Notes under the pieces: generated by a model
What the model saw: only the letters and a program-made list of their open reading frames with translations
Told to the model about the DNA's origin: nothing
Databases searched by the model: none
Source: Pelagibacterales bacterium SAG-MED31
Lineage (GTDB): Bacteria; Pseudomonadota; Alphaproteobacteria; HIMB59; GCA-002718135
Reading direction: 5' to 3'
DNA length: 53,094 nt
NCBI GenBank assembly: GCA_014653715.1
Contig: JACWEB010000004.1
Location: forward strand, 1 to 53,094
Shown: positions 2,285 to 30,182 of the stretch, in pieces
How the letters are laid out: each line of letters opens with the position of its first letter
Numbering within the stretch: position 1 is the first letter of the stretch
Program-made: the position numbers and the translations under genes

Positions 2285-4606
2285 ATGACGATAGTAGAAA
2301 AAGTAAAACAAAGTTTCAAAACTAGCGGCGATACTGGGGCACATAAATATCTTATGGTTCCAATTTTTATGTTTTTTGCTTTATTAATTTTTGCTCTAAT
2401 TAGAAGTCCTATCTTAATTTCAAGTTCAGGAATAGGGAGTGCAATTATTTTAACCGCTCCATTAATCTTAGCAACCTACTCTCTCACAATAATTGTTATG
2501 GCAGGAAGAGGAGGTGTGGACTTATCAATTGGACCATTTATGGGTTTTATCAATGTTAGTTTGATTCAATTATATGCCTATGGCTATCTTCAGCATCCTG
2601 TAAGTTTTTTCATATACGCAATTGGAATGGGTATTTTATATCAATTGTTATTTGGAATAATTGTTGTATTTGTTAGAGTATCTCCAATCATTGTAGCATT
2701 AGCAGGTTACCTAGCTTTTGTTGGTATAAATATAGTTATATTGCCACGACCAGGAGGTGTTTCACCTGATTGGTTAACACCATGGGGAGCTGGCTTTACG
2801 ATTTTTAATGAAATTTTACTCCTTCTTATTTTGGCAACAATCTTTTTTTATTTAATTACTCATACAGCTTTTTGGGGACATTTAAAACTTATGGGCTCTG
2901 ATGAAAGGGCAGCTTTTACAAGTGGAGTCAGGATTAATTGGGTAAGAATAGTAGCTCATGGATTGGCTGGAATATTTGCAGGTTTATCTGCAATAACATT
3001 TACTGCATTAATTGGTTCTGGTGATCCTTTGCAAGGAACTAAGTATACTCTTTTAGGTGTAACTGCTTTAGTGCTGGGGGGTGCAAGTTTAGTCGGAGGT
3101 AGAGGTGGAGCCTTTGGGGCAATATTAGGTGCTTTAATATTATACTTAATTAATTATATTTTAGTTACTTTTCAATTTGAAAGATTACAAAGTTTTGTGT
3201 CTGACTTGTCATATGGAGGTGTGTTAGTTATTGCTTTATTAATAAGTTTAACATTGCCTGTTGTTCAAAAAGTTACAAAACACTTATCAGTATTTGTTTT
3301 TTTTATATTAATGACAATAGCTGGACTAGCTGTTGTTATCCATGCAACTCAAGATATACCTATTAAGGATGAAACAGTTATTATTGATTCATCAAAAGAT
3401 GATTCTTATGAAAGATCAACTATTGTTCGTAAACTAGATAAAACTGGTAATATTATTGTAGAGGGAGATGCTGACTCCACAACTGGTCAAGGTACTTCTC
3501 AAGGGGGCTCATTAGCAGGTCACTCAGTTGTTAGTTGGGGAGATACTCCTGGAACAATAGTACTTTATGTAATACTTGGTGTAGCAGGATTGTCTTTTTT
3601 GATGACTTTACTTTTTAGAAATCGAGATGCCACTACAACACTATTTGCAATTGTAATAGCTCTAATATCTCTTGGTCTCATTTTTGATCCTGAAAATAAA
3701 AATAATGAAACTAGCCAAAATGAAGAAAAACAAATTTCAGAATTAAGTTCTATAGAGAGCTTTTCACCTGAATATTTTAGTATTGAAAAAATAAATTTTT
3801 TTTCAAATATATCATCAAATGCTAGTATTATTGTCAGTTCCACATATAGTTTAATTTACGCAGTTGGAATTATACTTCTTACATCTCTAATAGTTTTAGC
3901 AATGCTACCTCAGTTTAGTAATAGAGTTAAGGCAACAGCAATGTTGTTGTTTGTTGGTGCACTAACAGTTATTCTTTTAGGAGGAGTATCATATTATAAT
4001 TTAGAGAATAATTTTAATCCAAGTTTTTTTGGGTTACAAGGTTATGGAGTTATTTTAGTCGGATTACTTCTATTTGTTATTACAGCTCCTTTCGTTAACT
4101 CAAACATATCAAATCTTACAAACGTTTATATTTTTGGATTAAGTGTTTTAGCAATTATTGCTGTTTATTTTTTAGCAGGAAAAACATATACAATTAATGA
4201 TCCTTCAATTTATCAAATGCAAATCATCAGTGAATTAAAATTAGGAAATTTATCAGAAGTAATTTACCCAGAACCACTAAGACAAATGAATTCTGGAATT
4301 GCTCCTTTATCTCAGGTTGCATATAGTGCTTTAGTGATTTTTTTATTCCAGTTTTTTATTTTCATTGCAATGCAAAAACAAAATAAATATCTAAATTTTG
4401 CGCCTTTGATGTACATTATAATTATAGCTGTTTTTTTATGGTCTACAATTTTTTATGCTGTAGGATACTCTTTGTATAAAATTATTGCAGTTATAATAAT
4501 TGGTCTACCTATTACCCCATTAGTATGGCAATTTTTTGGAGTTTACTTAAAGAAGATTGCACGTGATAGAAAATTAAGTCAATGGGAACAAGAGAAGGAA
4601 GTGTGA
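2285..4606 (+). CDS. Sugar ABC transporter permease (BPD_transp_2/RbsC-like) with about 430-aa extra membrane C-terminal region
   Basis: N-terminal MAGRGGVDLSIGPFMGF and VLGGASLVGGRGGAFGAILGA motifs typical of RbsC-like permeases; later part contains many additional hydrophobic helices. Confidence 0.85.
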   Translation: MTIVEKVKQSFKTSGDTGAHKYLMVPIFMFFALLIFALIRSPILISSSGIGSAIILTAPLILATYSLTIIVMAGRGGVDLSIGPFMGFINVSLIQLYAYGYLQHPVSFFIYAIGMGILYQLLFGIIVVFVRVSPIIVALAGYLAFVGINIVILPRPGGVSPDWLTPWGAGFTIFNEILLLLILATIFFYLITHTAFWGHLKLMGSDERAAFTSGVRINWVRIVAHGLAGIFAGLSAITFTALIGSGDPLQGTKYTLLGVTALVLGGASLVGGRGGAFGAILGALILYLINYILVTFQFERLQSFVSDLSYGGVLVIALLISLTLPVVQKVTKHLSVFVFFILMTIAGLAVVIHATQDIPIKDETVIIDSSKDDSYERSTIVRKLDKTGNIIVEGDADSTTGQGTSQGGSLAGHSVVSWGDTPGTIVLYVILGVAGLSFLMTLLFRNRDATTTLFAIVIALISLGLIFDPENKNNETSQNEEKQISELSSIESFSPEYFSIEKINFFSNISSNASIIVSSTYSLIYAVGIILLTSLIVLAMLPQFSNRVKATAMLLFVGALTVILLGGVSYYNLENNFNPSFFGLQGYGVILVGLLLFVITAPFVNSNISNLTNVYIFGLSVLAIIAVYFLAGKTYTINDPSIYQMQIISELKLGNLSEVIYPEPLRQMNSGIAPLSQVAYSALVIFLFQFFIFIAMQKQNKYLNFAPLMYIIIIAVFLWSTIFYAVGYSLYKIIAVIIIGLPITPLVWQFFGVYLKKIARDRKLSQWEQEKEV

Positions 4607-4613
4607 ATAAAAA

Positions 4614-6038
4614 ATGACAAAATCAGCATTTCTTTTTTTTAAATCATTAGGTTTATTTTTTGCAATATTAGTTGGTATAGGTACAGCGGTACTAGGGTGG
4701 TTTGATTCTGCTGACTGGATGAATATTGTTTTTTATTCAGTTGCTACCTCTGCATTAGTTCTATGGGGCTGGTATCATTTTTCTATTCGCTGGATTCATA
4801 GTGATTTAAAACAAAATATTTTTTCACATATTTCCTCAGAAGAAGAGAGATCAAAAGATGAAATTGCTGAAGAGCAAGAAGATAGTAGTGAAAAAAATTT
4901 TTTTTATACAACGCTATTGCCTTATAAATGGGTAGCAATTGGATTTCTTCTCATCATTACTATCTTTATTTTTGTTTCTTTTATTTTTGATGGATTTTTT
5001 TCTGGAAGAACTTTAATTTCATTTTTAATTTTTTTAGGTTTCATAATAATAGCGTCTGTTATTGGCAGATATATTAAAGGTCAAAAAAGCACATTTATTG
5101 GAATATGTGTATTGATAGGATTGTTTATAATAGGGGCTTTGACAATAAATGGTTTTCTGTCTCTTTTAAATTTGAAATCAATGTTGGTCTTTGCAGCTTT
5201 TTTAGGTTTAGCAACTATAGGTCAAACTCTAGTTGCACTTTTAGGAGGTCTTGACTTATCAATACCATTTATAATTGGTTCTTCAAACGTAGCCTTAATG
5301 TCAATGATTTCAAAAGGTGTGCCTCCATGGCTAGCAGCATTAGTGGTTTTATTATTTGGCATAGGTGTAGGACTTATTAACGGTGTTCTTAGTTTTAGAC
5401 TGCAAGGTCAGGCTTTAATCTTAACTTTGGGTGTTGGTTTTTTTATGGTTGGCGGAGTTCAAATTTTAGTTGCCATGAATACATTTTCAGCAGGAACAGT
5501 TTTTGGAGTAGTTCCTGAATGGATGAGAAATCTAGCTTCAATGAACGGTAAAACAATTGGCTTGCCAGTACCACCTGTTATTTTAATATGGATTGCAGCA
5601 TCTATTCTTGTAATAGTCGGGTTAAGATACACAAAATGGGGAAGAAATCTTTATGCACTTGGAGGAAATAGATTATCGGCTGATAGACTTTCAATTTCTG
5701 AGAGAGCTTATTGGATTGGCGTTTATGTTATAAGCGGTTTTTTCTCAGCATTTACAGGTGCCTTACTTTTAGGTTGGAGTGGAGGAGGTTTTGTTGGTGT
5801 TGGAGATACTTATTTATTCTTAACTCTAGCTGCAGTTGTTGTGGGAGGGACATCGTTGCTTGGCGGTTGGGGAGGATATGGCTTAAGTGTCATTGGTGTT
5901 CTAATTTTACAAGTTCTCAACACAACACTTATCGGTTGGGGTTTAAGCTTTGAAGCGCAACAATTTATATTAGGATTGCTAATTATACCAATGGTTGCAC
6001 TTTACGCAAGATCACCTCATATTAGGACACAGGTGTAA
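4614..6038 (+). CDS. Sugar ABC transporter permease (RbsC-like) with N-terminal membrane extension
   Basis: LLGGLDLSIPFIIGSSNV and VVGGTSLLGGWGGYGLSVIGVLILQ motifs; follows the first permease. Confidence 0.85.
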   Translation: MTKSAFLFFKSLGLFFAILVGIGTAVLGWFDSADWMNIVFYSVATSALVLWGWYHFSIRWIHSDLKQNIFSHISSEEERSKDEIAEEQEDSSEKNFFYTTLLPYKWVAIGFLLIITIFIFVSFIFDGFFSGRTLISFLIFLGFIIIASVIGRYIKGQKSTFIGICVLIGLFIIGALTINGFLSLLNLKSMLVFAAFLGLATIGQTLVALLGGLDLSIPFIIGSSNVALMSMISKGVPPWLAALVVLLFGIGVGLINGVLSFRLQGQALILTLGVGFFMVGGVQILVAMNTFSAGTVFGVVPEWMRNLASMNGKTIGLPVPPVILIWIAASILVIVGLRYTKWGRNLYALGGNRLSADRLSISERAYWIGVYVISGFFSAFTGALLLGWSGGGFVGVGDTYLFLTLAAVVVGGTSLLGGWGGYGLSVIGVLILQVLNTTLIGWGLSFEAQQFILGLLIIPMVALYARSPHIRTQV

Positions 6039-6146: not shown

Positions 6147-6851
6147 ATGAACAAGTTACTATTTCCTCAAGATATTGTTGGAGGTTCTTTTTGGTTAATT
6201 TCAGTAGCAATGATTGGTGCGTCATTATTTTTCTTTCTTGAAAGAGGTAGGCTTTCAAAAAAATGGAACACCGTAATGACTTTAGTAGGTGTTATTGCTT
6301 TAATGTCTTCAATTCATTATTTTTATGCAAAAAATCTATGGGTGATGAATGGTCAGGCCCCAATTGCTATAAGGTATATTGATTGGACTTTAACTTTTCC
6401 TCTTCAAATTCTAACATTCTACGTAATGCTTGCGACGGTCACCGATGTGAAGAGAGGTATGTTTTGGCGTTTACTAGTAGGTACTTTAGTTTGGGTGATA
6501 GCACAGTTCTTAGGTGCGTCAGGTTATATGAGTGTAACTTTAGGCTTCTTAATAGGCATTGCTGGATGGCTATATATTATTGGTGAGCTTTATATGGGTG
6601 AAGCAGGTAGAAGAAATGCTGGATGTGGAAATCAAAATGTGCAAATGGCATTTTTTGCAAACAGATTAATTCTTACAATTGGTTTTGCGATATACCATAT
6701 TGGATATTTTATAGAACACCTTGGTGGAGGAGTAAATATTAGTAGTTTAAATGTTATTTATAATCTTGGAGATATATTAAATAAAATAATATTTGGTATG
6801 ATAATTTATAGCGCTGCTTCACAGGATTCTAAAAAAGGAAGTAGTGTTTAA
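6147..6851 (+). CDS. Proteorhodopsin-like microbial rhodopsin (divergent, D-T-T motif)
   Basis: Helix C RYIDWTLTFPLQILTFY; helix G NLGDILNKIIFG with Schiff-base Lys; conserved His in SSIHYFYAKNLW; preceded by GGGAG. Confidence 0.95.
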   Translation: MNKLLFPQDIVGGSFWLISVAMIGASLFFFLERGRLSKKWNTVMTLVGVIALMSSIHYFYAKNLWVMNGQAPIAIRYIDWTLTFPLQILTFYVMLATVTDVKRGMFWRLLVGTLVWVIAQFLGASGYMSVTLGFLIGIAGWLYIIGELYMGEAGRRNAGCGNQNVQMAFFANRLILTIGFAIYHIGYFIEHLGGGVNISSLNVIYNLGDILNKIIFGMIIYSAASQDSKKGSSV

Positions 6852-6900: not shown

Positions 6901-8886
6901 ATGACACAGGGAGCAGATATTATAGCAACTATTATTTTAATTGCTTTAGCAATTGCTATAATAGTTTACCTTTTACATTGGTTATACAGAAGATCATCTA
7001 AGGAAGTATCTTTTGTTCGAACAGGAATGTTTGGTGAAAAAGTAATTATCAGTGGTGGTGCTTTTGTTTTACCAATTATTCATAATATTACCCAAGTTGG
7101 AATGCGTACTCTATGTATCATAGTTAAAAGAGGTGGAGATAAGGCTCTAATAACTAGTGATCGTATGAGAGCAGAAATATTAGCAGAATTTTATGTAAGA
7201 GTTGCTCCAGATAAAAAATCTGTTGCTATAGCAGCCCAGACCCTTGGTAATAGAACTCTTGACCCAGAGCACTTAAGAGAATTAGTACAAGGAAGGTTTG
7301 TTGATGCATTAAGTATCGTTGCAGCAACTATGACTATAGATGAGATACAAGAAAATAGAGGTAAGTATGTTAAAGAGGTTACAAATATTGCTGAAGAGTC
7401 AATAGGACATACAGGACTTGAATTGGAGACAGTTTCATTGACTGGACTTGATCAAGCTCCAATAGAAATGTTTAATCCTTCAAATACATTTGACTCACAA
7501 GGTTTAACAAGATTAACAGAACAAATTGAAGCTAGAAGAAAAAAACGTAATGACATTAAACAAGATACTAAAATTCAAATTGAAAATAAGGATTTAGAAA
7601 CAATTCAAAAAGAATTGGAGATTCAAAAAGATAAAGAGTTTGCAAAATACAAGCAAGAAAGAGAAATTTCTAATCAAAAATCTTTAGAAAAAACTGAGAC
7701 AGTTAAAGTTAAAGCTCAAAATGAGATTGATGCTGAAGAAGCAGAAATTAATGCAGCAGAAGAAATTGAAAAAGCTAAAATTTCTCAAGCGCAAGTTATA
7801 GAAGTTGAAAAACGTTTGACTGAAACAAGATTAATAGAAGAGATTGAGAAAAGAAGAAGAGAACAAAATGAACTTGAGCAAAGTGCAGCTCTATCAATTA
7901 GAGAAAAAAATCTTGAAACAGAAATTAAGATTTTAGATCTAGATAAACAAAGTGAATATGCAAGATTAGAAAAACAGAGGTTGGTTGATATTAAAAAGGC
8001 CCAAGAAAGAGCAGAAATTGTTAAAGAGCAATCTGAAAGAAATAGGGATGCTGAAGAAGCCCAAATTATTTCTGAAGAACAAGTTAAAAATGCAAAAATT
8101 AGTCAGCAAAAAAATATTGATTCTTATAGAATTATAGCAGAACGAGAAACAAGATTGTTAGATATTGAAAAAGCAAAAAGAATTAAGCTTGAAGAACACC
8201 AAAAAGAACTTGAAATTATTGATAAATCTAAAACAGTTCTTAAATCAAAAGCTGAGGAAGAAGCAACAAGAGCTAAAGTTCTGGAGGCAGAAGAAAAAGC
8301 TCAATCGGCTAAATTTATAGAAAAAGCAGAAGGAATAAAACAAGTTGAAGTTATATCTGCCGCTTCTAAAGCAGAGCAAGATAGATTTGCCACCTTAGCA
8401 GCTAAGCTAAGATATGAAATTGATGCAGCTGGTAAAAAAGCTCTTAACACAGCAGAAAATCTAAGAAGTGATGCAAGCAGAAGAAGCGCATTAAGATTAA
8501 AATTAGCAGAAAAAATTGAAGACATCATAAGGGAAAGTGTTAAACCAATGGCTAATATAGGTGATATAAAAATTGTTGATGTTAATGGATTACCTGGTTT
8601 TAGCGGAGGTATGTCTGGAGGAGGAAATGGTTCTGGTGACTTAGCTTCATCAGGAGGTTCTGGAAGAGATGGTAATTTAGCAGATAGCGTTGTTAACTCA
8701 GCTCTACGTTATAGAGCTCATCAACCTTTTTTAGACAGTTTATTGAAAGAGATAGGAATGAATCCTGGAGAAATAAGTAATATTAGAAATATTTTAGGTG
8801 ATTATGAAAATCCAAAAAAAGATTTTCATATGAATTTTGATAAAGATCCAACTAAAAACTCTAAACCAAAAAGTTCAAAAACTTAA
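6901..8886 (+). CDS. Flotillin/YqiK-like SPFH-domain membrane protein with long coiled coil
   Basis: Single N-terminal TM, SPFH-like segment (GGAFVLPIIHNITQVGMRTLCI), long Glu/Lys/Ala coiled coil; GGAGG RBS. Confidence 0.85.
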   Translation: MTQGADIIATIILIALAIAIIVYLLHWLYRRSSKEVSFVRTGMFGEKVIISGGAFVLPIIHNITQVGMRTLCIIVKRGGDKALITSDRMRAEILAEFYVRVAPDKKSVAIAAQTLGNRTLDPEHLRELVQGRFVDALSIVAATMTIDEIQENRGKYVKEVTNIAEESIGHTGLELETVSLTGLDQAPIEMFNPSNTFDSQGLTRLTEQIEARRKKRNDIKQDTKIQIENKDLETIQKELEIQKDKEFAKYKQEREISNQKSLEKTETVKVKAQNEIDAEEAEINAAEEIEKAKISQAQVIEVEKRLTETRLIEEIEKRRREQNELEQSAALSIREKNLETEIKILDLDKQSEYARLEKQRLVDIKKAQERAEIVKEQSERNRDAEEAQIISEEQVKNAKISQQKNIDSYRIIAERETRLLDIEKAKRIKLEEHQKELEIIDKSKTVLKSKAEEEATRAKVLEAEEKAQSAKFIEKAEGIKQVEVISAASKAEQDRFATLAAKLRYEIDAAGKKALNTAENLRSDASRRSALRLKLAEKIEDIIRESVKPMANIGDIKIVDVNGLPGFSGGMSGGGNGSGDLASSGGSGRDGNLADSVVNSALRYRAHQPFLDSLLKEIGMNPGEISNIRNILGDYENPKKDFHMNFDKDPTKNSKPKSSKT

Positions 8887-8908: not shown

Positions 8909-9298
8909 ATGAGTGCAGAAATAAATAATTGGTCAAAAAAATTTGAAGATTTAACAAATAGCAATGAGACCATTAATGCTATGGCAAAATACTACACTTG
9001 CTCATTTATGTTTGATATGGAAAAAGTAAAAATTATTATTGAAATGCATGATGGAAAAGTAAAAAAAATAAATACAAATCCAGCACCATTAGATCCGTAT
9101 GATTTTGCACTTCGAGCTTCAGCTAAAACTTGGAAGGAATTTGGCAAACCTATTCCAAAACCAATGTACCATGGGATTTGGTCTGCAAGTTTTCAAAGAG
9201 ATCTAAAAATCGAAGGTAATCATTTAATCCTAATGCAAAATTTAAGAAATTTTACTGTACAGTTTGAACTTCTAAGACAATCTGGGGTACCTGTATAA
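8909..9298 (+). CDS. Hypothetical protein
   Basis: 129-aa ORF in tight gene series. Confidence 0.6.
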   Translation: MSAEINNWSKKFEDLTNSNETINAMAKYYTCSFMFDMEKVKIIIEMHDGKVKKINTNPAPLDPYDFALRASAKTWKEFGKPIPKPMYHGIWSASFQRDLKIEGNHLILMQNLRNFTVQFELLRQSGVPV

Positions 9299-9304
9299 TA
9301 TGAA

Positions 9305-10174
9305 ATGGAGAAAGAAAAAATAATGGTAAAACATCATGATGTCGTAGGTAGATATGTAACAATTGAAGTAGATGATTGTGAATATAAAGTTTTTTATCTT
9401 CAAAATGGAAAAGGAATCCCTCTTATATGTCAGCATACTGCAGGTTGTCATAATCATCAGTGGAGAGATCTTCTTGAAGATGAAGAAATAACCAATAATT
9501 ATAATGTAATTGCATACGATTTACCTAGACATGGAAAATCTGATCCACCTCATAATAAAGAATGGTGGAAAGAGGAATATAAACTTACCGCTGAACATTA
9601 CTGTAACTTTGTTGTAAAATTATGCGATGCTCTAGATTTAGATAATCCTATTTTTATGGGATCTTCCTTTGGTGGAAATGTAGCTTTGCAACTCGCTTTA
9701 CATCACCCAAACAAATTTAGAGCTGTAATACCTGTAGAGGCTGCAGATTATGCACCAGGCTTTTATTTAGATTGGTGGCGTCATCCTCATGCAAATGCAG
9801 CCCAAGTATGTGCAAGTGGCGTTTGGGATTTAATGGCACCACAGTCTCCTGAGATGGATAGATGGTTAACTTGGCATTATTATACACAAGGCTCAGAAGC
9901 ATTTAAAGGTGACTTGCACTTTTATTCAGTTGATCATGATTTAAGAAATGAGCTAGAAAATATTGATGGAAGAAAATGTCCTGTAATAATGCTAACAGGC
10001 ACTTATGATTATCTCACTCCACCAGAAGCGACAGAAAATACAGCAAGACAAATAAAAGGCGGGGTTTATATTGAAATGAATGATATTGGTCATTTTCCAA
10101 TGAGTGAAAATCATGATCTCTTCCGTGTTTACTTATTGGAGGCACTTAAAATTATTGAAGAAAAAACTAGTTAG
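9305..10174 (+). CDS. Alpha/beta hydrolase
   Basis: Nucleophile elbow MGSSFGGNVALQLALHHP; C-terminal DIGHFPMSE His; GTYDYLTPPE acid. Confidence 0.85.
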   Translation: MEKEKIMVKHHDVVGRYVTIEVDDCEYKVFYLQNGKGIPLICQHTAGCHNHQWRDLLEDEEITNNYNVIAYDLPRHGKSDPPHNKEWWKEEYKLTAEHYCNFVVKLCDALDLDNPIFMGSSFGGNVALQLALHHPNKFRAVIPVEAADYAPGFYLDWWRHPHANAAQVCASGVWDLMAPQSPEMDRWLTWHYYTQGSEAFKGDLHFYSVDHDLRNELENIDGRKCPVIMLTGTYDYLTPPEATENTARQIKGGVYIEMNDIGHFPMSENHDLFRVYLLEALKIIEEKTS

Positions 10175-10220: not shown

Positions 10221-10628
10221 ATGATAAAAGATAAAACAGGTGTTCAACTTAATTCTGCACATACAGCTACTGATGATTTTATTACAAAAAAATATATTTT
10301 ACCTTTGCTTCAAGATGAAGAAACTCGTAATCGCCTTATAGCAGAGCATAAAGCAACTCCTGTTGGTAGAGCTCCTAATAAAGGTAATCCAGCTGTTGAA
10401 CATTCCAAAGATTTGATAACTGTTCTTGATAAATTAAGAAGGCATCCTATGGCTGGAAAGTATGTTACGATATGTAAAAACCCTTTTGAGGATTATAGAA
10501 TTGGTATTTGTAGTGGTATTAGAGGTGTTCCTGTTGAAATTTTAGAAGACTCTTTTTCCTCAGAAGAAGCATGTGAACATGCAATATTTCTAAAAAGGGT
10601 TTTTGATTTGTTAGAGAAATATTCATAA
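10221..10628 (+). CDS. N,N-dimethylformamidase-like small (alpha) subunit
   Basis: C-terminal segment GKYVTICKNPFEDYRIGICSGIRG...FSSEEACEHAIFLKRV resembles DMFase small subunit as recalled; 1-nt TAATG overlap with the large-subunit-like gene. Confidence 0.7.
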   Translation: MIKDKTGVQLNSAHTATDDFITKKYILPLLQDEETRNRLIAEHKATPVGRAPNKGNPAVEHSKDLITVLDKLRRHPMAGKYVTICKNPFEDYRIGICSGIRGVPVEILEDSFSSEEACEHAIFLKRVFDLLEKYS

Positions 10629-12985
10629 TGTTAAAAATTACAGGTTATAGTGATAAGTATGCAGTTCATCCAGGAGATAAAGTAGAGTTTTTAATTAATT
10701 CAGAAGATAACGAACCATATGATGTTCAAATTGTAAGATTAATTCATGGAGATACTAATCCAGATGGACCTGGTTATAAAGAAGAGGAAATTGGGGCAAG
10801 TTGTAATGGAAGTTATGAAGGTAGAAACCAAAAGATACATGGTGGCTCTTATTTGATTATTCCTCAAGATGAAAGAATGAACACAGAAAGTTTTACTATT
10901 CAGGCTTATATTTTCCCCACAACACCTAATAAAGGTAGGCAGGGCATTTTAACAAAATGGAATGAGTCTAATTCATCTGGTTACGGATTATTCGTTGATG
11001 ATGAAAGTTGCCTAAGCTTAATGATAGGTGATGGTGAAGGTCAGCAGTTTAAAATTTCTAGTGAAAAAAAATTAATGAGAAAAGTTTGGTATTTAGTTGC
11101 TGCAAGTTATGATGCTGAAACTGGAAAAGTGAAATTATATCAAGAGCCAACTGTTACTCCTACTAATGGAGGATTAGGAATGTCTCTTTTACATCCTGCA
11201 GATGAGACAACTGCTTATATTGAAAGTTCTAACAATGTTAAACCTGGAAAAAATGAGGCGCCATTTTTAATGGCAGCCTCAACTCTGGTAAATTATTCAG
11301 GCAGACATATTTATGGAAAACATTATAAGGAAGCACTTTCCCCCATTGAATTACCAGAACAGGGATTTCTATTTAATGGTAAAATTGATCGACCAAGATT
11401 AAGTAATAAAGCTCTATCAAAAGATGAGATAAAAATATTAGCAAGTGGTTATAGTGGGTGTGACTCAGATTTAAGATCGAAAGCACTTGGAGTTTGGGAT
11501 TTTCATGCAAATATAACTTCAAATATTGCATCAACGCATATACTTGATATGTCCCCTAGTCATCTTAATGGTTTTATAGTTAATTTACCTGTTAGGGCAA
11601 TGACTGGATATAATTGGACAGCTGATGATATTGTGTATCATCATAAGCCTAATGAATACGGAGCAATCCATTTCCATGATGATGATATAGATGATGCTAG
11701 ATGGGAAGTAGACTTTGTATTTGATGTTCCTGATAAAATCAAAAGTGGTATCTATGCTGCTAGGCTAAGAATTAATGGAGAGGATTCTCCAGAAACTGAA
11801 GATTTTGTACCATTTGTAGTAAAACCACCTAAAGGAAAAGCCACTTCCAAGATAGCATTTATTGTTCCTACAAATAGTTATATAGCTTACTCTAATGATA
11901 ATTTAGGAACAAATTCTGTTGTAGCACAATTACTTGCAGGTAAGGTACCTGTGCTATCGGCTTCTGATTTATATTTAAATGAGCATAGAGAATATGGACT
12001 TTCAACATATTCTCAACATTCAGATGGAAGTGGAGTCTGTTATTCATCTAGGCTTAGACCAATTTTAAATATGCGTCCTAAATACAGACATTGGTTATCT
12101 CCTTCACTATGGCAATTAAATGCAGATTTGCATTTGACAGATTGGCTTGAAGAAAAAGGATTTGATTTTGATTGTGTAACTGATGAAGATCTTCATCTTG
12201 AAGGGGTAGAACTACTTAATCGATATCAATGTGTACTCACAGGTTCGCATCCTGAATATAGCTCTGAAAAAATGCTTGCTGCTTATGAAGCTTATCAATT
12301 ACAAGGAGGTAGATGGATTTATTTAGGAGCTGATGGCTTTTATTGGATCAGTGAATATCATCCTGATAATCCAAATATTATTGAAGTTAGAAAGGGTGAA
12401 GCTGGCACAAGAGCTTGGACTGCTAATCCTGGAGAATATAACAATGCCTTTGATGGAAAATTTGGAGGAATGTGGCGTGCAAGAGGAAGAATACCAACTA
12501 AAGTTTGTGGATTAACTTTTACTGCTTATGGATTTGATGTTTCATCTTATTATAAAAGGTCTGATGATAGTTATAGGCCAGAATGTTCTTGGATCTTTGA
12601 GGGTGTTGGGTCTGATGAACGTATTGGTGATTTTGGTCTTGTTGGTGGGGGTGCAGCTGGAGTTGAATTAGACAGATATGATCTAGAATTTGGCACACCT
12701 CATAATGCTTTTCTCTTAGCACAATCAGAAGATCATACTAATTTAATGCTTCAGGTTAATGAGGAAATTCATTTTTCAGTTAGAGGTTATCATGGTGGTG
12801 GTACAGAAAATCCCATGGTTAGAGCTGATATGATCTATTATAAAACACCTAACGATGGTGCATTATTTGCCCCAGGTTCTTTATCATGGTGTGGTAGTTT
12901 ATCTTATAATAATTATGAAAATAATGTTTCTAAAATTTTAGAAAACGCAATTAAAGGTTTTTTAAAAGAAGGTCCTCTTCCATAA
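10628..12985 (+). CDS. N,N-dimethylformamidase-like large (beta) subunit
   Basis: 785 aa; N-terminal sugar/LamG-like region; NSYIAYS, TGSHPEYSSEKM and RWIYLGADGFYWISEY motifs of the DMFase beta-subunit-like family. Confidence 0.85.
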   Translation: MLKITGYSDKYAVHPGDKVEFLINSEDNEPYDVQIVRLIHGDTNPDGPGYKEEEIGASCNGSYEGRNQKIHGGSYLIIPQDERMNTESFTIQAYIFPTTPNKGRQGILTKWNESNSSGYGLFVDDESCLSLMIGDGEGQQFKISSEKKLMRKVWYLVAASYDAETGKVKLYQEPTVTPTNGGLGMSLLHPADETTAYIESSNNVKPGKNEAPFLMAASTLVNYSGRHIYGKHYKEALSPIELPEQGFLFNGKIDRPRLSNKALSKDEIKILASGYSGCDSDLRSKALGVWDFHANITSNIASTHILDMSPSHLNGFIVNLPVRAMTGYNWTADDIVYHHKPNEYGAIHFHDDDIDDARWEVDFVFDVPDKIKSGIYAARLRINGEDSPETEDFVPFVVKPPKGKATSKIAFIVPTNSYIAYSNDNLGTNSVVAQLLAGKVPVLSASDLYLNEHREYGLSTYSQHSDGSGVCYSSRLRPILNMRPKYRHWLSPSLWQLNADLHLTDWLEEKGFDFDCVTDEDLHLEGVELLNRYQCVLTGSHPEYSSEKMLAAYEAYQLQGGRWIYLGADGFYWISEYHPDNPNIIEVRKGEAGTRAWTANPGEYNNAFDGKFGGMWRARGRIPTKVCGLTFTAYGFDVSSYYKRSDDSYRPECSWIFEGVGSDERIGDFGLVGGGAAGVELDRYDLEFGTPHNAFLLAQSEDHTNLMLQVNEEIHFSVRGYHGGGTENPMVRADMIYYKTPNDGALFAPGSLSWCGSLSYNNYENNVSKILENAIKGFLKEGPLP

Positions 12986-13641: not shown

Positions 13642-15693
13642 ATGTCTGATAAAATCTTATGGTTTTTTATTTTTTTAATTCTTTATGTTTCCTTTTGTGT
13701 TTTTTGGGCAATAAGAGGATCAAAAACATCTATTAATGAACAAGCATATTATCTGGCAAACAAAAGTATTTCTTCTTGGGTTTTCTTTTTTTCTGCAACA
13801 GTTGCAACATTTGGTGGCTTAATATTTTTTTTTCAAATAAACACTATTTATATTGATGGATTTCAATACGTAGGTACATCTTTTGTAGCAATTACCATAC
13901 CACTTGCAAGTATACTCTTTTTTAAAAGACAATGGATGTTAAGCAGAAAGTTTGGATATATTACACCTGGTGAATTATATTATGACTATTATAAAAGTGA
14001 CACTATAAGAATTATTACAGTCCTCGTTACATTTTTTATTAGTGTACCCCTACTGGCAACTTTATTTGGAGCAACTGGTTTCCTAGTTAATATGATTTCT
14101 AATGGAGCAATAACTCGTGAATTAGGTATGTGGGTAATCTCTTCCGTAGTTTTATTGTATGTAGTAATGGGTGGTTTTAAAGCTACAGTTAGCATTGGTG
14201 TTCTGCAATCGTGGTTATTTATGGCAACATTTGTAATTATAGGTTTTATTACTTTTATTTTTATTGGAAGTTTTGATACATTTAGTCTTTCTTTATCTAA
14301 TATTGCATCTTCTAATTTAAATTCTCTAGGGAGCACAAGAGGTTATGGTGGAGGAGATTACAACAGCTTTTTTGCTGTTCCAGGAGTTATACAGTGGGTT
14401 GGAGGCCTCGGCAAAGAACCTTCAGTTGGTGGTCCATGGACAGCAATGATGATTTTAACATTCTGTTTATCATTTATGGGAATAATTTTGTCCCCAATCT
14501 TTTCAATGTGGAGCTTCTCCACAAAACATACAAAGGTATTTTCTTATTACCAAATTTGGGGAAGCGCAGCAGCCATTGGATTTTTATTATTTATTTTTGC
14601 TACCATCATAGGTGTTGGTGCAAATTTATTAGGAGCAAATGCAGATATTAATACTAATTCTTTATCCTTGAGTAATGTACTTCCAGAAATATCTAAGTCA
14701 GAGAGTTCAACGTTAATTTTTTACATTGTAAGTATTATGGATGATCATGCTATTTGGATTACAGGTTTTCTTTTTATAGGTTTAATAGCCGCCATTCAAT
14801 CAACAGCTGCAGCATTTTTATTTAGCTCAGGTAGTATAATTACGAGAGATTTATATAAAATTTACATTGATAAAGATATGCAATGGAATAAAGAAATAAT
14901 GGTTGCAAGATTAATTATACTTTTTGTTTTTCTTTCAGCTTTATATTTGGCAACTTTTGCAAAACCTGCAATGATATTATTTAGTGGTATAGCTATCCCG
15001 CTTGCTTTTCAGTTTATTACTATTTTACTTGGTGTTCTTTGGTTTTCTTGGATCACAAGAGGGGCAGCAACAATGGGTATTATTATAGGGTTTATAATTG
15101 TAATTTTAACTGAAACAATTGGTCAACAAATTACAGGCAATAGATTGCCATGGGGAAGATGGCCTCTGACTATACATTCAGGTATTTGGGGTTTAATATT
15201 TAATTTATTAGTTTGTTTTTCAATTTCAATTTTTTCATTTTTTTCAAAAAATGATATTTATAAATTACATAGAGAAAAATATCATAATTTTTACAGAGAA
15301 CATTCTGGACTTCATCCAAGTAGACGAAGAATAAGATCTTTTGCCTATGTTATAGCTTTGATATGGTTCTTTGCAATTGGGCCAGGTCTTGTAGTTGGAA
15401 ATGATATCTTTGGTATCCCAAATGAAGGTTATGATACATGGTATATGAAAATTCCATCAATATGGGGATATCAATTAATTTGCTGGATTATAGGAATTGG
15501 TTTGCTATGGTTTTTAGCTAACAAAATGGATCATTCAACTTTACCAACAAAACCTATTCAACCTGGTGATTTGTTTGAAGACGTAGAAGATAATATTAAC
15601 TACACAGAAAATGTAGGTTCTAGCTATGGATGGATTTTAATATTAATCGGATTAGCAATTTTATCTATTGTATTTTATATCTACGTTGTTTGA
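13642..15693 (+). CDS. Sodium:solute symporter (SSS family)
   Basis: Multi-TM; YYLANKSISSWVFFFSATVATFGGLIFF; IAAIQSTAAAFLFSSGSIITRDLYKIY signature region. Confidence 0.8.
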   Translation: MSDKILWFFIFLILYVSFCVFWAIRGSKTSINEQAYYLANKSISSWVFFFSATVATFGGLIFFFQINTIYIDGFQYVGTSFVAITIPLASILFFKRQWMLSRKFGYITPGELYYDYYKSDTIRIITVLVTFFISVPLLATLFGATGFLVNMISNGAITRELGMWVISSVVLLYVVMGGFKATVSIGVLQSWLFMATFVIIGFITFIFIGSFDTFSLSLSNIASSNLNSLGSTRGYGGGDYNSFFAVPGVIQWVGGLGKEPSVGGPWTAMMILTFCLSFMGIILSPIFSMWSFSTKHTKVFSYYQIWGSAAAIGFLLFIFATIIGVGANLLGANADINTNSLSLSNVLPEISKSESSTLIFYIVSIMDDHAIWITGFLFIGLIAAIQSTAAAFLFSSGSIITRDLYKIYIDKDMQWNKEIMVARLIILFVFLSALYLATFAKPAMILFSGIAIPLAFQFITILLGVLWFSWITRGAATMGIIIGFIIVILTETIGQQITGNRLPWGRWPLTIHSGIWGLIFNLLVCFSISIFSFFSKNDIYKLHREKYHNFYREHSGLHPSRRRIRSFAYVIALIWFFAIGPGLVVGNDIFGIPNEGYDTWYMKIPSIWGYQLICWIIGIGLLWFLANKMDHSTLPTKPIQPGDLFEDVEDNINYTENVGSSYGWILILIGLAILSIVFYIYVV

Positions 15694-16980: not shown

Positions 16981-17796
16981 ATGTATGAAAACACAATATC
17001 ATTTAATACAAATATCAAACTGTATATGTTTCAAACGGGTATTTTAAAAACTAAATTAAAATATATCAAAATGAATCAATCGAATGAAGATTTTGAAATC
17101 CCTGTCCCGTGGTTTTTAATTAAACACCCAGAGGGTGATGTAGTAATAGATGGTGGAAATGCTATTGAAGTTGCTATTGATAAACACTCTCATTGGGGAG
17201 ACGTAGTAGCTGCGTATGATCCTTTAATGCAAAAATCTGAAAATTGTATTGATCAAGCAAAGAGTGTTGGAATTAATATATCTGATGTAAGATATTTAAT
17301 TCAATCGCACTTACATCTTGATCATACAGGTGGGATTGGTCGATTTCCTAATGCAACACACATAGTTCAGAGATTAGAATATGATTATGCTTATAATCCA
17401 GATTGGTTTGCCTCTGCTGCATACATAAGAAAAGATTTTGATAAACCTAATATTGAATGGAAATTTTTAAATGACAAGAAAACTGACTTCTTTGATTTAT
17501 ACGGAGATGGAGTAATAAAGATTATTTTTACACCAGGTCATGCGCCAGGTCATCAATCTATATTACTCAACCTCCCTAAAACAGGTCATGTTTTATTAAC
17601 AATAGATGCAGCTTATACGATGGATCACTGGAATAATAAATGCTTACCAGGCCTTCTTCATTCTTCTTCTGATGCTGCAAAATCAGTGACCAAATTAAGA
17701 AAAATAGCAAAAGAAAATAAGGCAATTATAGTGACGGGACATGATCCTGATGCATGGGCTACATTTAAAAAGGCACCCACTTTTTATTACGAATAA
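16981..17796 (+). CDS. Metallo-beta-lactamase-fold hydrolase (N-acyl homoserine lactonase-like family)
   Basis: QSHLHLDHTGGIG (HxHxDH), TPGHAPGHQS, VTGHDPDAW. Confidence 0.85.
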   Translation: MYENTISFNTNIKLYMFQTGILKTKLKYIKMNQSNEDFEIPVPWFLIKHPEGDVVIDGGNAIEVAIDKHSHWGDVVAAYDPLMQKSENCIDQAKSVGINISDVRYLIQSHLHLDHTGGIGRFPNATHIVQRLEYDYAYNPDWFASAAYIRKDFDKPNIEWKFLNDKKTDFFDLYGDGVIKIIFTPGHAPGHQSILLNLPKTGHVLLTIDAAYTMDHWNNKCLPGLLHSSSDAAKSVTKLRKIAKENKAIIVTGHDPDAWATFKKAPTFYYE

Positions 17797-22880: not shown

Positions 22881-24215
22881 ATGACAAAAGTAGCTATAAT
22901 TGGTTCAGGCCCATGTGGGCTGTCAATATTAAGAGCTTTTCAACAAGCTGAAGAGAAAGGACACATCATTCCTGAAATTGTTTGCTATGAGAAACAAAAA
23001 GATTGGGGAGGTTTATGGAATTATAGTTGGAGGACTGGCTCTGATCAATACGGTGACCCCGTCCCAAATAGTATGTATCGTTATTTATGGTCCAATGGCC
23101 CTAAGGAATGCTTAGAGTTTGCTGACTATTCTTTTGATGAACATTTTAATCAACCAATTCCATCTTTCCCTCCAAGAGAAGTTTTGTATGATTATATTTT
23201 AGGCAGAGCCAAAAAAGCAAATATTAAGAAGTATATAAAATTTAATACAACAGTTACACAAGCAAAATATAATGGAAGTCAGTTTGAAATTTCTACATTA
23301 AATAAAATAGATAATACTTTAAATACAAATAATTTTGATTATCTTGTTGTGGCATCAGGTCATTTTTCGGTGCCGTATATTCCTGAATATGATGGAATGA
23401 AATCTTTTCCTGGTAGAATTTTACATGGTCATGATTTTAGAGACGCAGAAGAATTTAGAAATAAAGATGTGGTTGTTTTAGGTAGCAGTTATTCAGCTGA
23501 GGATATATCACTTCAATGTTACAAATATGGTGCAAAGTCTGTCACTATTGGATATCGAAACAATCCTATGGGCTTTAAGTGGCCAGATGGAATGAAAGAA
23601 GTTTATTATTTAGATAGATTAGAAGGGAACAAGGCAATTTTTAAAGATGGTCATGAACAAAATGCTGATGCAATTATATTATGCAGCGGCTATCTCCATC
23701 ACTTCCCCTATCTTGAAGATACTTTAAAACTTAAAACAGGAAATAGATTATATCCACCCAAGCTATATAAAGGTGTTGTTTGGCAAGATAATCATAAAAT
23801 GATGTATCTAGGTATGCAAGATCAATTCCATACTTTTAACATGTTTGATTGCCAAGCTTGGTTTGCAAGAGATGTAATAATGGATAAAATAAAAATGCCT
23901 AGTGATGAAGAAATAGAAAAAAATATTAGTAAATGGGTATCAGAAGAGGAGATTTTAGAAGATCCAATTCAAATGATTGATTTTCAAACTGAATATACGA
24001 AAGATTTGCACGCTTCATCTGACTATCCTAAAATTAATTTTGAATTAATCAGAGAGCATTTCAAAAATTGGGAGCACCATAAAGAAGAAGATATAATGAC
24101 TTATAGAAATAATTCTTTTTCATCACCTGTTACAGGAACAATAGCTCCTATTCACCATACACCTTGGGCAGAAGCGATGGATGATTCAATGGATACATTT
24201 ATGAAGTCTAAATAA
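22881..24215 (+). CDS. tmm: Trimethylamine monooxygenase
   Basis: GSGPCGLSILRAFQ; EIVCYEKQKDWGGLWNYSWRTG; MYRYLWSNGPKECLEFADYSFDEHF; GHDFRDAEEF characteristic of bacterial Tmm. Confidence 0.93.
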   Translation: MTKVAIIGSGPCGLSILRAFQQAEEKGHIIPEIVCYEKQKDWGGLWNYSWRTGSDQYGDPVPNSMYRYLWSNGPKECLEFADYSFDEHFNQPIPSFPPREVLYDYILGRAKKANIKKYIKFNTTVTQAKYNGSQFEISTLNKIDNTLNTNNFDYLVVASGHFSVPYIPEYDGMKSFPGRILHGHDFRDAEEFRNKDVVVLGSSYSAEDISLQCYKYGAKSVTIGYRNNPMGFKWPDGMKEVYYLDRLEGNKAIFKDGHEQNADAIILCSGYLHHFPYLEDTLKLKTGNRLYPPKLYKGVVWQDNHKMMYLGMQDQFHTFNMFDCQAWFARDVIMDKIKMPSDEEIEKNISKWVSEEEILEDPIQMIDFQTEYTKDLHASSDYPKINFELIREHFKNWEHHKEEDIMTYRNNSFSSPVTGTIAPIHHTPWAEAMDDSMDTFMKSK

Positions 24216-24598: not shown

Positions 24599-26956
24599 TT
24601 AAGCCTTAACTCTACTTTTTGTTGGATCATAAAAAGGAAAACCTACAACTTTGGCAGATATTCTTTTTTGATGCCCATCAAGTTTACCCACCTCAAGCTC
24701 TGTACCAATTTCAGATGAGCGAATATCAACTCTGCATAAGGCTATATTCTTATTTAATGTTGGAGAAATTGTTCCACTTGTTATGATGCCAACTTGAGCT
24801 CTACCACTATGAACACAATCGCCGTGATTAACTTTTTCATTTCCTTCTAACTCTAATCCAACTAATTTTTTATGAGGATGTGCTTTTCTTTCAACTAATG
24901 CCTCTTTACCAATAAAATTTTGTTCTTTAGTTTTAAGAGGAACAGTAAAACTTATTCCAGCCTCAAAAGGATCAGTCTCATCACTAAATTCATTACCTCC
25001 TAGAATTAATCCAGCTTCAATTCTAAGCATATCAAGTGCTTCAAATCCCATTGGTGAGATATTAAATTCTTGTCCAGCATCCCATATCGCATCCCAAACT
25101 TTAGGTGCATCATTAGGGTGACAATAAATTTCATAACCAAGTTCCCCAGTATAACCAGTTCTAGATAACATGATCGGTATTCCTGAGTGGTCTCCAATTC
25201 TGCTAATTGTAAAATGAAACCATTCTAGATTATTAACTTGTGGGTGAGCAGGAGGTGTCCAAATAATTTTGGATAACAATTTTCTACTGTTTGGTCCTTG
25301 TACTGAAATATTATGAAGGTGATCAGTTGAGGATTTAATGTTGGCATGAAGTTTTAATTCTTCGCTTAATTGCGTGAGCCATTCTCCTGAATAATCACTG
25401 CCACAAATCCAACGAAAATTATGATCTCCTAATTTATAGAGAGTACCATCATCAATCATGGTACCATTTTCATAGCACATTGCTGTGTACACAACCTGAC
25501 CAACTGATAATTTTTTAATATTTCTTGTAAGTGCTACATTGAGTAATTCCTCTGAGTCAGGTCCAACAATTTCAAACTTTCTTAATGAAGACAAGTCCAT
25601 CATTACTACATTGTTCCTGCATTCAGTATATTCTCTAATAGTTCCAAAATTATTAAATTTATTTGGAATCCAAAAACCATAAGATTCCATCATATCATTT
25701 GTTAATTTAGATGTTCTTGGATGAAAACCTGTTTCTTTTGTCAGCATAAAATCACTTCCAGCATTTTTTCTATAACCAATAGATTTTGCAAATCTATTTT
25801 TTTCTGAGTAAACTCTAACGTAAATGTCTGTGGGGTTCCAGTCATTTGCAGTATCAATATCATCAGGACATGATGATGATACGCATACAAGATCTTTCTG
25901 TGCTTTAAAAAGAACGTAATCACCAGGACGTGACCATGGCATGTCAGAATAAATTACATTGTTTGCGTCTATTCCAGTATTAAAAAATAAATTTATAGCA
26001 GCCCATCCATTTCTTTTTTCAACTCCATATTTATCAAGTGCATAATTAAAATTATCTGAACAATTTATATGACCAAAATAACCTTGATCTTCATAAAGTT
26101 TTCTTGTGCAAGCTGTACCAAAAGTGTCATGCCGGCCAATTGTGTCTTGAACTACTTCAACTAGAGGTTCTAGATTTTTATCAAAATATTTTGAGTGCAA
26201 ACCTGGCATTGCATATGCACCACCAACGATTGCTCTACTCGCTGTTGTATCAATTGATAGTTCTTTTCCATTTTGTAAACCATCACTATCAAAAGCCATA
26301 AAGTCTGAGCACTGTCTCCCATATAAATCAATAATTTGAATGTAATCGCCTTTTTTAATTTCATATGCAGTTGCAGAACTATCTTTTATTAAAATTTCTT
26401 CTTTAGGTGAAGCCAATGGTTCAGGTAAAACTCTTTCTAATTTATTTTTTTTTGGATTAATTCTTTTAACTATAACTTCTATATCGGTAGGAGGATTTTG
26501 ATTTCTAACAATCATATTTTCTCCAGGACAAGCTAAGACAATAAAACAATTTTCATTTATGATTATCTTTTCACTATCATTTCTTTTTGAATTTTCATTA
26601 AAGATTAAAGATGAAGCAAATTTATCAAGGTTAATTTTTTTATTTTTTAATTTTTGAATTAAAAACAATTTATCTGAGTTATTATTTAAAATTTTTTTTA
26701 AAAAAGAATTTTCTATTTTAGGTTTTTTATTAATTATATTTTGATTGTTATTTCCTTTTTGATCAAAGATAGTTATTTCACAAACTTGATTTCCATCTAA
26801 ATTTTTAAGATATAAATTATCACCTTTATCCAAATCAATGCCAATTAATCCTTGTCCTTTAACTAAATATCTCTCCGTATCTTCAGGAAGTCCATAGGAG
26901 CCAATGACAATAGGATTAGATCTTCTTACTTGGTATTTACTAATATCAATATTCAT
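24599..26956 (-). CDS. tdm: Trimethylamine N-oxide demethylase (DUF1989-GcvT fusion)
   Basis: N-terminal DUF1989-like (DYIQIIDLYGRQCSDFMAFD), C-terminal GcvT-like (MLSRTGYTGELGYEIYC, FIGKEALVER); next to tmm. Confidence 0.88.
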   Translation of the reverse strand: MNIDISKYQVRRSNPIVIGSYGLPEDTERYLVKGQGLIGIDLDKGDNLYLKNLDGNQVCEITIFDQKGNNNQNIINKKPKIENSFLKKILNNNSDKLFLIQKLKNKKINLDKFASSLIFNENSKRNDSEKIIINENCFIVLACPGENMIVRNQNPPTDIEVIVKRINPKKNKLERVLPEPLASPKEEILIKDSSATAYEIKKGDYIQIIDLYGRQCSDFMAFDSDGLQNGKELSIDTTASRAIVGGAYAMPGLHSKYFDKNLEPLVEVVQDTIGRHDTFGTACTRKLYEDQGYFGHINCSDNFNYALDKYGVEKRNGWAAINLFFNTGIDANNVIYSDMPWSRPGDYVLFKAQKDLVCVSSSCPDDIDTANDWNPTDIYVRVYSEKNRFAKSIGYRKNAGSDFMLTKETGFHPRTSKLTNDMMESYGFWIPNKFNNFGTIREYTECRNNVVMMDLSSLRKFEIVGPDSEELLNVALTRNIKKLSVGQVVYTAMCYENGTMIDDGTLYKLGDHNFRWICGSDYSGEWLTQLSEELKLHANIKSSTDHLHNISVQGPNSRKLLSKIIWTPPAHPQVNNLEWFHFTISRIGDHSGIPIMLSRTGYTGELGYEIYCHPNDAPKVWDAIWDAGQEFNISPMGFEALDMLRIEAGLILGGNEFSDETDPFEAGISFTVPLKTKEQNFIGKEALVERKAHPHKKLVGLELEGNEKVNHGDCVHSGRAQVGIITSGTISPTLNKNIALCRVDIRSSEIGTELEVGKLDGHQKRISAKVVGFPFYDPTKSRVKA

Positions 26957-28834: not shown

Positions 28835-30182
28835 ATGGCTTTTCCTGAAAAAGTTGATTACGTAATAGTTGGTGCTGGTATCCATGGCCTTAGCACTGCC
28901 TGGCATCTTGCTGCTAAATTAAAAGCTAAGGGTAAGGGAGATGGTTCAAAAATTGTTGTTATAGATAAAGATAGTATTGCTGCAGGCGCCAGTGGAATTG
29001 CATGTGGTGTAGTTCGTAACAATTACTTCCAACCTGCCATGCGAGAATTAATGGCAATGTGTGTAGAGGTTTGGGAAAGTGATGCAAAAAACTTCCACTA
29101 TCACGATGTTGGATATATGCAAATTAGCCCTGAATGTATGGAAAATGATGTAGCAGAAATTTATGCACAACAAAAAAAATATTGGATATGAATCAGTATT
29201 TATTCAAGGTGAAAAAGATTCTGAAAATTACATGAAGAAAATGTTTGGTGATTGGCAAGCAAAAGGTATTACAAGCGTTTTGCATGAAAAAAGAGGAGGT
29301 TATGCTAACAACACATCTGCTATTTATGGTCTAGCAGATAAGGCAGAAGCCGAAGGTGTTAGAATATTAACTGGAACAACCGTAAAAGGTTTTCAATATG
29401 GATCAAACTCAAGTGCAGTAACAGGTGTAGAAACAGACAAAGGTCTAATAAAATGTGATCACGTAATTGTTGGAGCAGGTCCCTGGGCAAAAACATTTTG
29501 GGATATGTTAGAACTTCCTAATGAAATTACTATTAAGGGATCAGGTGGAAATTTAAATACTAATATACCAATGTGGCACTATTGGATGCTAACTGAAGGG
29601 GTTTTAAGAGTTGACCCTGATTATCTTAAAACTGACAGTGGAGATATGCCACCGGTTATTCATGTTGATACTGATGCGCCACTTTATTCAGATACAGATA
29701 AAAGTTTAATAACTGACAAATTATGGGGTATTTATTATAAACCTGATTTTCACTTTAATGGTATTCAGGGAGGATCATCACCTTACAAAGTTGGAAAACC
29801 AGGAGGTGAGGGAGTTAATGTTGATCCTTATGGGCCAAAATCTGCTGACTTTGTTATTAGTGATGAATTCGGCGATATGTGGACTTCAGCTTTAGCCTTT
29901 TGTCATAAAAGATTTGAGGGAAAATCTCATTTATTTAAAAAAGGAGCAACTGGAGGTTTGGGTTGTTTTACACCAGACTCATTCCCTGTTTTTGATCAAT
30001 TTAGAGAAAATGTTTATATGATAGCTGATTCTAATCATGGATATAAAATGATTGGAGTTGGCAAATTAGTAGCGGATGAAGTTTTAGGAGAAAAATCATC
30101 TCTTTTAGAGCCATTCCGTTTTTCAAGATACGAGCAAGGAAATTTACATCCAACTTCTAATAGTCCTTTTCCGTGGAGTTAA
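28835..30182 (+). pseudogene. FAD-dependent oxidoreductase (sarcosine oxidase beta/N-methylglutamate dehydrogenase-like), split by a frameshift at an A8 run
   Basis: N-terminal DYVIVGAGIHGLSTAWHLA in ORF 28835..29191; remainder in ORF 29163..30182; removing one A from 29172..29179 joins the frames as IYAQQKNIGYESVF. Confidence 0.8.

Follow-up and report, generated by a model that had tools for sequence, protein, structure and literature searches.

A Pelagibacterales-type flotillin-associated rhodopsin with a rebuilt retinal pocket in an alphaproteobacterium outside Pelagibacterales

Introduction

Flotillin-associated rhodopsins (FArhodopsins, FARs) are abundant in dim ocean waters. The window, the whole stretch of 53,094 nucleotides analysed here, carries one that raises a question of function: what does a rhodopsin do when the Lys and Asp of its Schiff-base end are kept and the residues around the retinal are replaced? 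The comparisons below focus this question on five fixed pocket residues next to an invariant pair of Lys and Asp.

Identity of the rhodopsin

The rhodopsin gene is an intact open reading frame whose 234 aa product matches the Bac_rhodopsin family of Pfam.

6147..6851, + strand: FArhodopsin, DTT-Q motif, 234 aa (Pfam PF01036, 1.7e-26; PDB 9r21 FAR, 6.1e-90; tree clade, 100/100; 82-92% identity to FAR loci of single-cell genomes)

Its top PDB matches are entries of flotillin-associated rhodopsin, 9r21 (E 6e-90) and 9r23 (5e-89), which the fold search identifies as PsFAR and its H84V/E120G double mutant; the structure model of the window protein is weak (mean pLDDT 63.6) and served for the fold search only. 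An alignment and a tree, proposed as a check in an earlier sequence-only reading, place the window in the FAR clade (100/100) with PsFAR, the Pelagibacterales FARs and the FARs of family f2, apart from the pumping proteorhodopsins. Inside the window-type DTT subclade (100/99), the window and the single-cell genome AG-464-G03 (93/83) are sister to the Pelagibacterales FARs. Fifty loci lie in named genomes, mostly single-cell genomes of Pelagibacteraceae at 82-85% identity, with AG-464-G03 at 92%. The window protein is therefore a FArhodopsin of the Pelagibacterales type, an already published kind of marine rhodopsin paralogue whose gene arrangement is described in Pelagibacterales, HIMB59 and Pseudothioglobus (PMC10308929), and which was seen earlier as the abundant deep-water "DTT" rhodopsins of SAR11 (PMC5864233). 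No relative of the window rhodopsin occurs among the viral contigs, and a viral origin was rejected for that reason.

Residues are numbered as in green proteorhodopsin (GPR), whose letters were checked against PDB 8cqc; K213, F84 and Q120 of the window protein correspond to positions 231, 102 and 138. The alignment to GPR gives H75, D97, T101, Q105, T108, F197, H201, D227 and K231, and so bears out every residue named by the sequence-only reading, including the changes E108T, W197F and P201H. Four further changes, V102F, M134W, G138Q and E142A, were absent from that reading. Since position 142 is Ala, helix D offers no substitute carboxylate there for the lost donor, and the refutation that the sequence-only reading had foreseen in helix D does not arise at this site. 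The triad D97-T101-T108 makes the motif DTT in place of DTE, and DTT, DTL or DNI at these positions is a FArhodopsin trait. The sequence-only reading knew of no characterised rhodopsin with this combination of residues; it is in fact the hallmark of the Pelagibacterales-type FArhodopsins, on which papers appeared in 2018 and 2023, and PDB structures of the related PsFAR were released in 2025. The DTT-Q form of the window is a rarer one, not itself new: such sequences have been found at low frequency, with transcripts at 500-1000 m (PMC5864233).

The retinal pocket

Five of the substituted positions, 102, 134, 138, 197 and 201, map to what we take to be the retinal-lining positions of bacteriorhodopsin. 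In the window's own numbering they are F84, W116, Q120, F180 and H184 (V102F, M134W, G138Q, W197F and P201H), with K213 kept. Since these positions are substituted together in the window-type FARs, the helix-F changes F197 and H201 are, on the alignment, part of a rebuilt pocket for the ring and the polyene, and the bulky or polar residues would fill the retinal (vitamin A) pocket and obstruct it.

Every one of the 48 window-type FARs has T108, F102, W134 and Q138, and all 47 that can be read at positions 197 and 201 have F197 and H201, although the sequences compared come mostly from a single group of single-cell genomes and cannot count as independent. With such fixation, neither chance nor sequencing error accounts for these residue states. 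K231 is invariant both in the window-type FARs (47/47 readable) and in the f2-type FARs (33/33). The rest of the Schiff-base end, R94, D97, W98, Y200 and D227, is likewise kept in the window-type FARs, with Glu in place of Asp at the counter-ion position 97 in two from Pelagibacterales (L056 and L071). The proteorhodopsins of the relatives have canonical pocket residues in 16 of 16 cases, and the FAR pocket substitutions are absent from them. A dN/dS of about 0.03 (pairs with dS < 1.5) shows that the rhodopsin is under strong purifying selection and is a working protein.

The sequence-only reading took the retinal site to be intact and proposed a slow photocycle with a sensory or otherwise non-standard role. 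The Schiff-base end is indeed intact, but F102, W134, Q138, F197 and H201 occupy the beta-ionone and polyene positions, so the claim holds for only one end of the site. A role other than that of a standard proton pump is nevertheless likely, as that reading had it, since both the carboxylate donor E108 and the canonical pocket of the proteorhodopsin pumps are absent (T108 and the five pocket substitutions). It is highly improbable that the protein is an ordinary outward pump in which direct water access replaces E108: a DTQ-Q rhodopsin of SAR11 that has no carboxylate donor gave acidification in E. coli (PMC5864233), but the window protein has an altered retinal pocket as well, and DTT-T introduced into working pumps abolished pumping (PMC5864233).

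The two sites mutated in PsFAR, 84 and 120, are F84 and Q120 of the window (GPR V102 and G138), and the H84V/E120G mutant has the proteorhodopsin residues there; its authors presumably aimed at reopening the pocket. AlphaFold models of FARs clash with retinal (PMC10308929). When produced in E. coli, DTT-T rhodopsins of SAR11 did not bind retinal and did not pump (PMC5864233), even though, as both papers caution, failure to bind retinal in E. coli may reflect misfolding when flotillin is missing (PMC5864233, PMC10308929). These results tell against a slow photoreceptor, the view of the sequence-only reading. In such a protein retinal would sit in a distorted pocket and loss of the donor would slow the photocycle, through which flotillin microdomains or partner proteins would be modulated. 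The invariance, or near invariance, of K231, D97 and D227 speaks for such a photoreceptor, while the five substituted retinal-contact positions speak against it, and we regard it as rather unlikely.

The gene cluster

The rhodopsin gene stands in a cluster of + strand genes, of which the flotillin gene starts 49 bp downstream.

2285..6038, + strand: two BPD_transp_2 ABC permeases, upstream of the rhodopsin (Pfam PF02653)
6901..8886, + strand: flotillin (SPFH/Band_7 and Flot domains), 661 aa (Pfam PF15975, 6.6e-29; PF01145, 4.9e-11)
8909..9298, + strand: conserved FAR-cluster gene, 129 aa (synteny, 74-88% identity in FAR loci; no Pfam family)
9305..10174, + strand: alpha/beta hydrolase, conserved in the FAR cluster (Pfam PF00561; 83-92% identity, syntenic)
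10221..10628, + strand: conserved 135-aa FAR-cluster gene, right before the dimethylformamidase-like gene (synteny; no Pfam family)
10628..12985, + strand: N,N-dimethylformamidase beta-subunit-like protein of the FAR cluster (Pfam PF20254, 3.5e-94; syntenic)
13642..15693, + strand: sodium:solute symporter of the FAR cluster (Pfam PF00474; also in the AG-464-G03 and f2 FAR clusters)

The order rhodopsin, flotillin, 129-aa gene, hydrolase, 135-aa gene, dimethylformamidase-like gene is kept in AG-464-G03 and in Pelagibacterales (for example AG-390-L03). The f2 genomes, including G091, which is a single contig of 1,410,127 bases, have the symporter between the hydrolase and the 135-aa gene, the order being otherwise largely common. 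The permease pair has the same position in the AG-464-G03 and f2 FAR loci, and was not seen in the flanks read of the Pelagibacterales FAR loci. The 129-aa gene occupies the place of a sterol-carrier-like gene in the published FAR cluster, and in Pelagibacterales the two genes for rhodopsin and flotillin are transcribed together (PMC10308929). A flotillin homologue is present in 6/6 FAR-containing genomes tested and in 0/9 genomes that have no FAR; in one locus, that of SCGC AAA288-N07 (L077, 6718-8662), the flotillin gene is in two pieces, possibly by a frameshift.

No transducer gene occurs among the FAR-block genes scanned, and the describers of the FArhodopsins remark on the same lack (PMC10308929), which is a further point against a sensory photoreceptor. 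The distribution of the family, mainly in the photic and lower photic zones and in genomes that usually have a proteorhodopsin too (PMC10308929), is in its favour, as is the second, proteorhodopsin-type match in 38 of the 47 FAR-containing genomes.

The latter count also bears on a hypothesis of the FArhodopsin authors (PMC10308929), that FAR serves the cell's own proteorhodopsin as a subunit or modifier, tuning or stabilising the pump in hetero-oligomers in dim light. The PsFAR entries have five chains each, as do several GPR and BPR entries, consistent with this. However, no proteorhodopsin was found in AG-464-G03 (1.5 Mb) or in the window's genome, both of which may be incomplete, and we consider the hypothesis quite unlikely. 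In the latter assembly, only 54% complete, the missing second rhodopsin proves nothing, and incompleteness can explain all nine FAR-containing genomes that have no proteorhodopsin-type match. G094 (94% complete, with no PR, BCD or PSY match) was rejected as a genome without proteorhodopsin; since its contig ends at the proteorhodopsin locus, an assembly gap is the best explanation of the absence.

The FAR cluster ends with an AttM-family N-acyl homoserine lactonase (16981-17796; NF045700, 436.9 bits, cut-off 390), which is also present in AG-464-G03. Farther on, a methylated-amine gene set (18556-38724) comprises an OpuAC-type ABC transporter, a trimethylamine monooxygenase (22881-24215; NF058570, over the cut-off), a DUF1989+GCV_T protein (24599-26956) similar to TMAO demethylase, one gene like glutamine synthetase, a triplet like glutamate synthase, and an ammonium transporter. 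An FAD-dependent oxidoreductase (DAO) lies in two overlapping frames (28835-29191 and 29163-30182), likely through a frameshift or sequencing error. The dimethylformamidase-like gene of the FAR operon may feed the same methylated-amine metabolism.

Host lineage and transfer of the cluster

The assembly contains no 16S gene for typing the host. The RpoB comparison groups the host with genus g1 (G001, 95% identical) and with AG-464-G03 (79%); f2 (64-66%), which is assigned to the host's own order, and Pelagibacterales (60-62%) stand at about the same distance from it. The host is thus an alphaproteobacterium outside Pelagibacterales, apparently a new detail for a FAR of the Pelagibacterales type. 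The window FAR is 83-85% identical to the Pelagibacterales FARs and only 66-69% to the f2 FARs of its own order, while the proteorhodopsins of the host's genus and of Pelagibacterales are about 58-61% identical. Within the host's genus (G000-G090), a FAR-level match occurs only in the window's own genome, among the matches listed. The flotillin tree joins the Pelagibacterales sequences to that of AG-464-G03 and leaves the window's outside this group (98/97). Taken together, these sequence comparisons indicate that the FAR cluster was transferred from one order to another, and they hint at a direction, perhaps out of this lineage into Pelagibacterales.

Proposed function

Since the pocket appears to be filled by bulky residues, the protein is probably neither a light-driven pump nor an ordinary light sensor; and since the filled retinal site is combined with the kept Lys and Asp, its likely state is a retinal-free one, not a slow photocycle. 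We therefore think it likely that FAR is a retinal-free, or retinal-poor, seven-helix protein that does not pump or undergo a photocycle and acts independently of light in a flotillin-organised microdomain. The protein would have the seven-helix opsin fold and would probably form oligomers as proteorhodopsin does. The Schiff-base Lys, both counter-ion Asp residues, Arg94 and Trp98 are in place, but with the proton donor lost (E108T) and bulky or polar residues in the retinal tunnel, all-trans retinal would not be held in the normal way, and neither pumping nor a photocycle would follow. As a light-independent membrane component, FAR would stabilise or regulate membrane partners, either the ABC permeases and symporter of its cluster or the cell's ordinary proteorhodopsin; a scaffold role together with flotillin in a membrane microdomain would be the most likely one.

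The invariance of K231 is odd if no aldehyde is ever bound. The kept Lys and Asp may form a structural salt bridge or may serve another ligand. Retinal-free proteoopsin holds decanoate, a precedent for an occupied apo pocket (PMC11322631). In a rather improbable variant, the former pump has become a receptor or holder, in which the Lys/Asp pair at the bottom of the re-shaped pocket would bind a lipid tail or a small compound with a carbonyl group and link this ligand both to flotillin domains and to the genes for uptake and breakdown in the mobile operon, which moved between alphaproteobacterial orders.

Comparison with known systems

The Pelagibacterales FArhodopsins (DTT; single-cell genomes AG-390-L03 and AAA288-N07) are 82-85% identical to the window protein and share T108, F197, H201, F102, W134 and Q138 as well as the gene order from rhodopsin to dimethylformamidase. 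They differ in having mostly T105, where the window has Q105, while the window differs in its f2-like upstream permease pair and in its host. The FArhodopsin of AG-464-G03 (L032) is closer still, 92% identical, with DTT-Q, the same upstream permeases and the same host lineage in the RpoB tree, even though the host RpoB is only 79% and the flotillin 82% identical. The f2 FArhodopsins (DNI motif; probably of the HIMB59 family) belong to the same clade and cluster and have F102 and a bulky residue at 134, but they are only 66-70% identical, have N101 and I108, keep W197 and P201, and mostly have W at 155.

PsFAR (9r21; mutant H84V/E120G, 9r23) is about 60% identical to the window protein and its best structural match, also with residues unlike those of proteorhodopsin at 84 and 120. 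It differs in H84, E120, M108, W197 and P201, and in the Phe that replaces the helix-B His. The proteorhodopsins (GPR, BPR HOT75 and Med12) share the fold, the Schiff-base Lys and the counter-ions, but are only about 41-48% identical and have the canonical retinal pocket and the E108 donor. To these known systems the locus contributes a host lineage at odds with the phylogeny of the rhodopsin itself, and a sequence that is sister to the Pelagibacterales type.
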